From positions 1-32,987 of the forward strand of contig JAGTQA010000011.1 of assembly GCA_018396975.1 (NCBI GenBank): a DNA stretch of 32,987 nucleotides, read 5' to 3'. The stretch's first letter is position 1. Each line of letters starts with the position of its first letter. Positions 17,610 through 18,504 of this stretch are shown here, one piece after another. Source of the stretch: Candidatus Bathyarchaeota archaeon (GTDB lineage Archaea; Thermoproteota; Bathyarchaeia; Bathyarchaeales; DTEX01). The notes beneath the pieces are model-generated. The model saw nothing but the letters and a program-made list of their open reading frames with translations, did no database searches and was not told where the DNA came from. The position numbers and the translations under genes are program-made.

Positions 17610-18356
17610 ATGATCCATGAATACGGCTTACTAATCGGCAACTCAAAAATACATATTAAAAGCGATAATTTAGGGGCCCTCTTAGAGGCTGTCAAAGAAA
17701 TAGAGCGCCATATAAAGGATCTCATGAACTATATTAGGAGTAGGCCGCATTTCCAGTATTCCCTTAAGCCTATAAGCCCAGATCCCAAATCACCCCCAAT
17801 CGTTCAGAGGATGATTGAGGCGTCTAAGGCCGCTGATGTCGGGCCCATGGCGGCCGTTGCCGGGGCAATCGCGGACCTTGGGCTTGAGACTCTGATTAGA
17901 ATGGGGTCTAGAGTAGCTGTTGTTGAGGATGGTGGGGAGATAGCCGCATATACGGAGGGCGAGGGCATCCCAATCTCAATCCTAACCAGCGAACCAAACC
18001 TCTCCGGAAAGCTGGGCTTCTTAATTACTAGGGATGATTCACCATTGGGCATAGCAACAAGTACCGGAAGGTCCCAGCGGACAATAAGCTTCGGTGAGGC
18101 CGACTCGGTAACAGTTGTCGCTGAGAGCGCAGCCCTAGCGGACGCCGCAGCAACATCAATATGCAACTCTGTCGTGGGCCAGAACATTAGGGAGGCTATT
18201 TCCAGAGGGTTGAGGAGGGCTAGGGAGATAAGTGGTGTTAGGGGAGCAATAATTATATGGGAGGGGCATGTGGGCCTAGTGGGCAAACTGCCAAAGATGA
18301 TCAGCATTAGAGACTCCCAGCGACAAAATCCTTTAGTGCAACGATCCAGCATTTAA
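17610..18356 (+). CDS. UPF0280 family protein of sulfide assimilation (ApbE-like fold)
   Basis: The 248-residue protein matches COG2122/UPF0280, with DVGPMAAVAGAIADLG, VVEDGGEIAAYTEGEG, LGIATSTGRSQRTISFGEAD and AALADAAATSICN. These resemble the flavin-transferase ApbE fold. Its Methanosarcina homologue, MA1715, is known to make sulfide assimilation into homocysteine efficient, though its reaction is not established. Gene order DUF39, NIL-ferredoxin, UPF0280 brings all three known components together. It starts 7 bp after the ferredoxin stop and ends 6 bp before a tRNA gene. The ATG at 17610 is the only good start near the ferredoxin stop. No membrane segments are seen. Confidence 0.92.
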   Translation: MIHEYGLLIGNSKIHIKSDNLGALLEAVKEIERHIKDLMNYIRSRPHFQYSLKPISPDPKSPPIVQRMIEASKAADVGPMAAVAGAIADLGLETLIRMGSRVAVVEDGGEIAAYTEGEGIPISILTSEPNLSGKLGFLITRDDSPLGIATSTGRSQRTISFGEADSVTVVAESAALADAAATSICNSVVGQNIREAISRGLRRAREISGVRGAIIIWEGHVGLVGKLPKMISIRDSQRQNPLVQRSSI

Positions 18357-18393
18357 TTTAATGGGCCCGTGGCCTAGCATGGATAGGGCGCAG

Positions 18394-18417
18394 ACAGAGG
18401 CAAAATAATGGGCGTAG
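18394..18417 (+). other. Intron 1 of tRNA-Arg, 24 nt, non-canonical position 29/30
   Basis: The 5' side GCGC (tRNA positions 24-27, 18388-18391) pairs with intron GCGT (18412-18415), including one G-U pair. Three-base bulges follow on both sides, A28-G29|A and A-G|G30, each cut after its second base. The exon C31-C32-T33 can also pair with A21-G22-G23 as the outer helix. Alternative junctions at 27/28 or 28/29 give the same mature tRNA but no 4-bp central helix. Confidence 0.85.
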
Positions 18418-18425
18418 GCCTTCGG

Positions 18426-18440
18426 AAGCAGCGTGGAGAA
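18426..18440 (+). other. Intron 2 of tRNA-Arg, 15 nt, canonical position 37/38
   Basis: CTTC (positions 32-35, 18420-18423) pairs with intron GGAG (18435-18438), with one G-U pair. Three-base bulges are G36-G37|A and A-A|A38, cut after the second base. Position 37/38 is the classical archaeal site. The intron is at the short end of the usual size range and its inner helix is weak. Confidence 0.88.
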
Positions 18441-18504
18441 AGCCTGAGGTCGGGGGTTCAACTCCCCCCGGGCCCGCTAACCCTCACCATAATGTTGGTG
18501 GCGT

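Follow-up and report, generated by a model that had tools for sequence, protein, structure and literature searches.

Results

A tRNA-Arg(UCG) gene interrupted by two introns

The window analysed here, a 32,987-nt stretch of DNA from a Bathyarchaeota MAG (1.10 Mb, 75 contigs, 92.8% complete), carries a tRNA-Arg(UCG) gene on its forward strand at positions 18363–18476. The assignment to Bathyarchaeota comes from the window's Pelota protein, which is 67–72% identical to five named loci, four of them labelled Candidatus Bathyarchaeota. The tRNA gene contains two introns (18394–18417 and 18426–18440), which divide it as follows:

18363–18393, forward strand: exon 1, tRNA positions 1–29 (5' strand of the acceptor stem, D arm and C27-A28-G29)
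18394–18417, forward strand: intron 1, 24 nt, at the non-canonical position 29/30; same position in 12 orthologues and in the single-intron genes of family f6
18418–18425, forward strand: exon 2, 8 nt, positions 30–37, GCC-UUCG-G with the anticodon UCG inside; invariant in 13/13 double-intron genes
18426–18440, forward strand: intron 2, 15 nt, at the canonical position 37/38
18441–18476, forward strand: exon 3, positions 38–73, ending in G73 (3' strand of the anticodon stem, variable loop, T arm, 3' strand of the acceptor stem)

Upstream, an ORF on the same strand (17610–18356), with matches to NCBIfam hypothetical PRK04334 models that fall below cut-off, has its stop codon 6 nt before the tRNA start. 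An SFM1-like ORF (PF04252; 18505–19122, forward strand) lies 28 nt 3' of the tRNA gene. SFM1-like genes are patchily distributed in the order (10/61 genomes), and no tRNA-Arg was seen beside the relatives' copies in the flanks examined, so that synteny is uninformative.

Excision of both introns yields a 75-nt canonical tRNA, as is expected of archaeal BHB-type introns. The acceptor and T stems are fully paired, all five pairs of the anticodon stem form (CAGGC/GCCTG) and the D stem contains a single wobble pair (T13.G22); the CCA end is not encoded. In a blind enumeration of BHB-consistent excisions, this double excision ranked first. Neither ARAGORN nor an Rfam gathering scan of the window gave a match at the gene, whose score lies below the Rfam gathering threshold. 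When introns were allowed, ARAGORN returned a tRNA-Pro(CGG) with one intron, i.e. a different tRNA carrying one longer insertion. That structure lacks the Arg cloverleaf restored by the double excision and is contradicted by the relatives, in which the Arg(UCG) exon body is conserved even in intron-free genes (G021, G045 and G057); we find it barely credible. The cloverleaf obtained after excision and the 12 orthologues described below thus bear out an earlier note on this DNA, which had proposed a tRNA-Arg(UCG) with these two introns, these two junctions and the 29/30 position.

Excision register and splice motifs

An imperfect 8-nt direct repeat, GGGCGCAG (18386–18393, forward strand) and GGGCGTAG (18410–18417), occurs at the first intron, the second copy forming the intron's 3' end. 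Because of this repeat, the register of intron 1 is ambiguous from the tRNA alone: nine 24-nt excision registers are tRNA-compatible and three of them give an identical product. Of the nine, the one given above alone allows all 4 bp of the central helix to pair. Where the intron 1 of a relative terminates in TAA or CAA, the anticodon stem dictates the same register. The elements of the two predicted splice sites are:

18385–18387, forward strand: site 1 outer helix, AGG (positions 21–23), pairing with CCU at 18419–18421 (positions 31–33)
18388–18391, forward strand: site 1 central helix, exon strand, GCGC (positions 24–27), pairing with GCGU at 18412–18415
18412–18415, forward strand: site 1 central helix, intron strand, GCGU; cut 2 nt further on, between 18417 and 18418
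18420–18423, forward strand: site 2 central helix, exon strand, CUUC (positions 32–35), pairing with GGAG at 18435–18438
18435–18438, forward strand: site 2 central helix, intron strand, GGAG; cut 2 nt further on, between 18440 and 18441

Both sites therefore have a 4-bp central helix and predicted cuts between nucleotides 2 and 3 of 3-nt bulges. The intron-side helices are a different matter, consisting of C-G, a mismatch and G.U at site 1 and of a single A-U pair at site 2, so that neither site attains the optional strict hBHBh' form with at least two Watson–Crick pairs on both flanking helices. The earlier description of both junctions as bulge-helix-bulges with two 3-nt bulges accordingly holds on the exon side but not on the intron side, where the helices that would close the inner bulge are weak. 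Since these helices are nearly absent, both sites are, judged from their predicted pairing, of the relaxed bulge-helix-loop (BHL) type and not full BHBs. A full inner helix is present in the tRNA-Arg(UCG) of some relatives. Some archaeal endonucleases are known to act on relaxed and BHL sites (PMC12397907; PMC4033280).

Conservation of the two-intron structure

Twelve orthologues, drawn from three genera of the same family, carry both introns: seven in the same genus (G001, G002, G003, G005, G006, G007 and G010), two in genus g4 (G013 and G015) and three in genus g5 (G018, G019 and G020). Intron positions are the same in all of these genes, while the intron bodies have diverged and range from 11 to 32 nt (intron 1) and from 15 to 26 nt (intron 2). 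Three very short 29/30 introns, of 12 nt in G018 (L140) and G019 (L141) and 11 nt in G020 (L247), have almost no intron-side structure.

Across the window gene and its 12 orthologues, central helix 1 is paired at 51/52 positions (complete in 12/13 genes) and central helix 2 at 50/52 (complete in 11/13). Sliding the intron strand by 1–3 nt as a control gave 0–36/52 for helix 1 and 23–39/52 for helix 2. Because the 12 orthologues keep both intron positions with diverged bodies, and because the helices exceed the slid controls, the two-intron structure is, on this comparison of sequences, more than chance. The exons hardly vary, and what the helices show is consequently for the most part a conserved intron strand, with little covariation on both sides. 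Among exon changes, that of G007 stands out most clearly: position 24 has changed from G to A and still pairs with an intron U; position 11 has changed from C to T, and the D stem is kept too.

Outside this family, the genes of family f6 (G032, G038, G041 and G053, of which G032 and G041 are identical in sequence) have only the 29/30 intron, with a strong inner helix formed by GUCACC and GGUGAC or near variants. Uninterrupted tRNA-Arg(UCG) genes occur in G021 (f2) and in G045 and G057 (f7). A tree of the alpha subunit of the splicing endonuclease (see below) does not resolve the deeper forks and breaks up the family, so that intron gain and intron loss cannot be polarised.

Alternatively, the locus could be a decaying or silent copy, with mature tRNA-Arg(UCG) supplied from elsewhere; the MAG is 92.8% complete and a second gene could be missing from it. 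However, the exons are intact, the stems are perfect and the two-intron structure is kept in 12 relatives. In addition, no intact copy was found in the source assembly: none of its eight other RGCCTTCGGA sites lies in a recognisable tRNA, and RF00005 and T-arm searches revealed no second tRNA-Arg(UCG) among the T-arm sites examined (the last listed ones in part). The intact tRNA-Arg(UCG) elsewhere that the earlier note had named as counter-evidence was thus not encountered at those eight sites, and we consider a silent copy very improbable.

Splicing endonuclease and ligase genes

Two PF01974 paralogues, alpha and beta, recur across 40 relatives. Alpha has the residues Tyr/His/Lys and a loop, KPLGIPKPK, and among PDB entries it matches 3P1Z, 2CV8 and 3AJV best. 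In the relatives, the motifs GFYGKPLGIPKPKSPDF, DFAVY, EHAPY and VRKRF provide the catalytic triad together with a Lys-Pro-(Lys/Arg) loop. The crenarchaea-specific loop (CSL) has been characterised as a lysine that precedes a proline or valine and, after that, a basic residue (PMC12397907), and KPLGIPKPK fits that description. Beta (about 190–210 aa, including an N-terminal region) has SKDSADY or a similar sequence where alpha has EHAPY; it keeps the Tyr and Lys of the catalytic positions, its His is replaced and the loop is absent, i.e. it is a subunit without the full triad. Since the relatives carry two paralogues, of which alpha has a crenarchaea-type loop, a heteromeric, broad-specificity endonuclease is supported at the level of the lineage by these gene sequences, in agreement with the heteromeric or crenarchaeal-type enzyme predicted previously.

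In the source MAG, beta is the only one of the two paralogues found (C1:7564–7818; L030 1474–2091, minus strand). The proposed check for two subunit types was therefore positive in relatives, while the source MAG itself, an incomplete assembly, gave beta only. RtcB was not found in this MAG, nor was the ribosomal protein eS6, the latter in a search that had no positive control in this genome and is supportive only. Alpha is listed for 10/10 genus-mates, and RtcB is present in 18/20 relatives and 8/10 genus-mates. Because eS6 adjoins alpha (the neighbour seen in G006) and RtcB lies 18–34 kb from alpha on the same contig in G004, G006 and G007, the simplest explanation for the joint absence of the three genes from the MAG would be an assembly or binning gap.

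Overlap of the two sites and order of splicing

Site 1 requires positions 21–27 and 31–33, and site 2 requires 30–35 and 39–40. The overlap on exon bases that had been noted earlier is thus real and comprises bases 31–33; the site 1 outer helix contests both the D stem and site 2. As a result of these overlapping needs, the D stem and both motifs in full cannot all form at once, which makes a sequential removal of the introns plausible.

It had further been concluded that the overlap implies ordered splicing. An obligatory order, in which one intron must leave before the other site can form, draws on the use of 31–33 by the outer helix of site 1 and of 30–35 by site 2, and on the tRNAscan-SE 2.0 paper, which describes genes whose introns lie so close that one has to come out for the second BHB to form (PMC8450103). 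However, a relaxed motif can do without the outer helix for which site 1 competes. Moreover, constrained energies at 60°C, in which the site-1 structure of G019 was not scored, are inconsistent between species: they favour site 2 for the window and for G018, but site 1 for several other relatives. The 3' UAG of a retained intron 1 can replace positions 27–29 in the window and G006, but the other relatives have UAA or CAA there, with a mismatch. The stronger conclusion is thus not supported as it was put, and we regard an obligatory order as somewhat unlikely; ordered excision of the two introns is possible.

Two further ideas about order were considered. Mimicry of the exon CAG by the 3' UAG of intron 1, such that intron 2 leaves first, is not general, the UAG being confined to the window and G006. 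It is improbable, in our estimation, that the mutual overlap of the motifs, together with their overlap with the D stem, is a built-in checkpoint that enforces one order and has been selected family-wide since the 37/38 intron joined an older 29/30 intron. When the RNA was folded without constraints, at 37 and 65°C, not even the mature cloverleaf was obtained, and such folding hence cannot order the splicing steps.

Other tRNA genes with predicted introns

Several other loci appear to be interrupted. For the source assembly, these are computed fits from the same solver, made within that assembly alone. L021 (G000:C8:3180–3342, minus strand) fits best as a tRNA-Lys(CUU) with introns of 34, 19 and 36 nt, with alternative placements of the third intron scoring equally; ARAGORN reports tRNA-Ala(GGC). 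L028 (G000:C39, about 830) fits as tRNA-Tyr(GUA) with two introns, 36 nt long near 29/30 and 47 nt long near 37/38 (tRNA-Phe in ARAGORN), and L024 (G000:C1:12413) as tRNA-Arg(CCG) with one 27-nt intron at 29/30, miscalled tRNA-Leu by ARAGORN. The solver also fitted two introns to a tRNA-Val(GAC) and one to a tRNA-Thr(GGU). No solution was obtained for L025 (G000:C70:1567–1650, minus strand), a 194-nt tRNA-like precursor in which GACCGTTAGG occurs twice and which, by eye, may hold three introns, one of them in the D loop. In a relative, L227 (G025:C4:72060–72340) resembles tRNA-Arg(CCU) and has apparent insertions near the junction of acceptor stem and D arm and at about 29/30. A comparison for intron transposition between tRNAs of the genome found 0/55 pairs of resolved intron bodies passing Bonferroni correction.

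Discussion

We conclude that the tRNA-Arg(UCG) is a genuine, conserved multi-intron archaeal tRNA, ordinary in kind. Our preferred reading, to which we assign a probability of about 0.94, is that of a functional bathyarchaeote tRNA-Arg(UCG) made from a two-intron precursor by (alpha-beta)2-type cleavage at both sites and joining by RtcB. The gene's transcript would be a precursor containing two introns of the endonuclease type. An (alpha-beta)2-type endonuclease, its alpha subunits bearing the crenarchaea-type loop, would then cut both sites by way of the 4-bp central helix between the bulges, the intron-side ends of both sites presumably being open loops as in a relaxed motif, and RtcB ligase would join the exon ends. 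In this scheme the subunits would assemble in the organism itself, which would possess alpha and RtcB as most of its relatives do.

The closest likeness is to the multi-intron tRNAs of Thermoproteales (Pyrobaculum and others; PMC4033280, PMC8450103), which likewise have two to three short BHB-type introns at canonical and non-canonical positions, set so close together that the two motifs cannot both fold completely at the same time; tRNAs with such close-set introns have thus been described already (PMC8450103). A broad-specificity (alpha-beta)2 endonuclease with the CSL would be shared as well, being predicted for the bathyarchaeotes from the genes of relatives. Unlike in Thermoproteales, where intron transposition has been reported, no intron sharing between tRNAs is detectable here among the resolved intron bodies, and the host is a member of the Bathyarchaeota, not of the Thermoproteales. 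Another archaeon outside Thermoproteales, Caldiarchaeum subterraneum, has a tRNA-Thr(GGU) with two introns (PMC3293823), but there the population is variable in intron content and a putative mobile element is found close by, whereas both introns of the present gene are kept across three genera. The endonuclease itself resembles the crenarchaeal (alpha-beta)2 enzymes of Aeropyrum pernix (3P1Z/3AJV) and Sulfolobus tokodaii (2CV8) in the alpha triad with its Lys-Pro-Lys/Arg loop and in a second paralogue without the full triad. The bathyarchaeote beta is longer than that of Pyrobaculum (2ZYZ chain A), a short chain of 116 aa.

A partial literature search, confined to papers, found no earlier description of multi-intron tRNAs in Bathyarchaeota. 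On a practical level, ARAGORN misses or miscalls the gene and the Rfam gathering score is not reached. As a single order contains orthologues with zero, one and two introns, it offers a setting in which the step-by-step gain or loss of introns could be followed. The finding is consistent with the proposal that (alpha-beta)2 endonucleases bearing the loop co-evolved with non-canonical tRNA introns, and it places Bathyarchaeota among the lineages whose tRNAs are multiply interrupted, extending a known pattern to a little-studied group.
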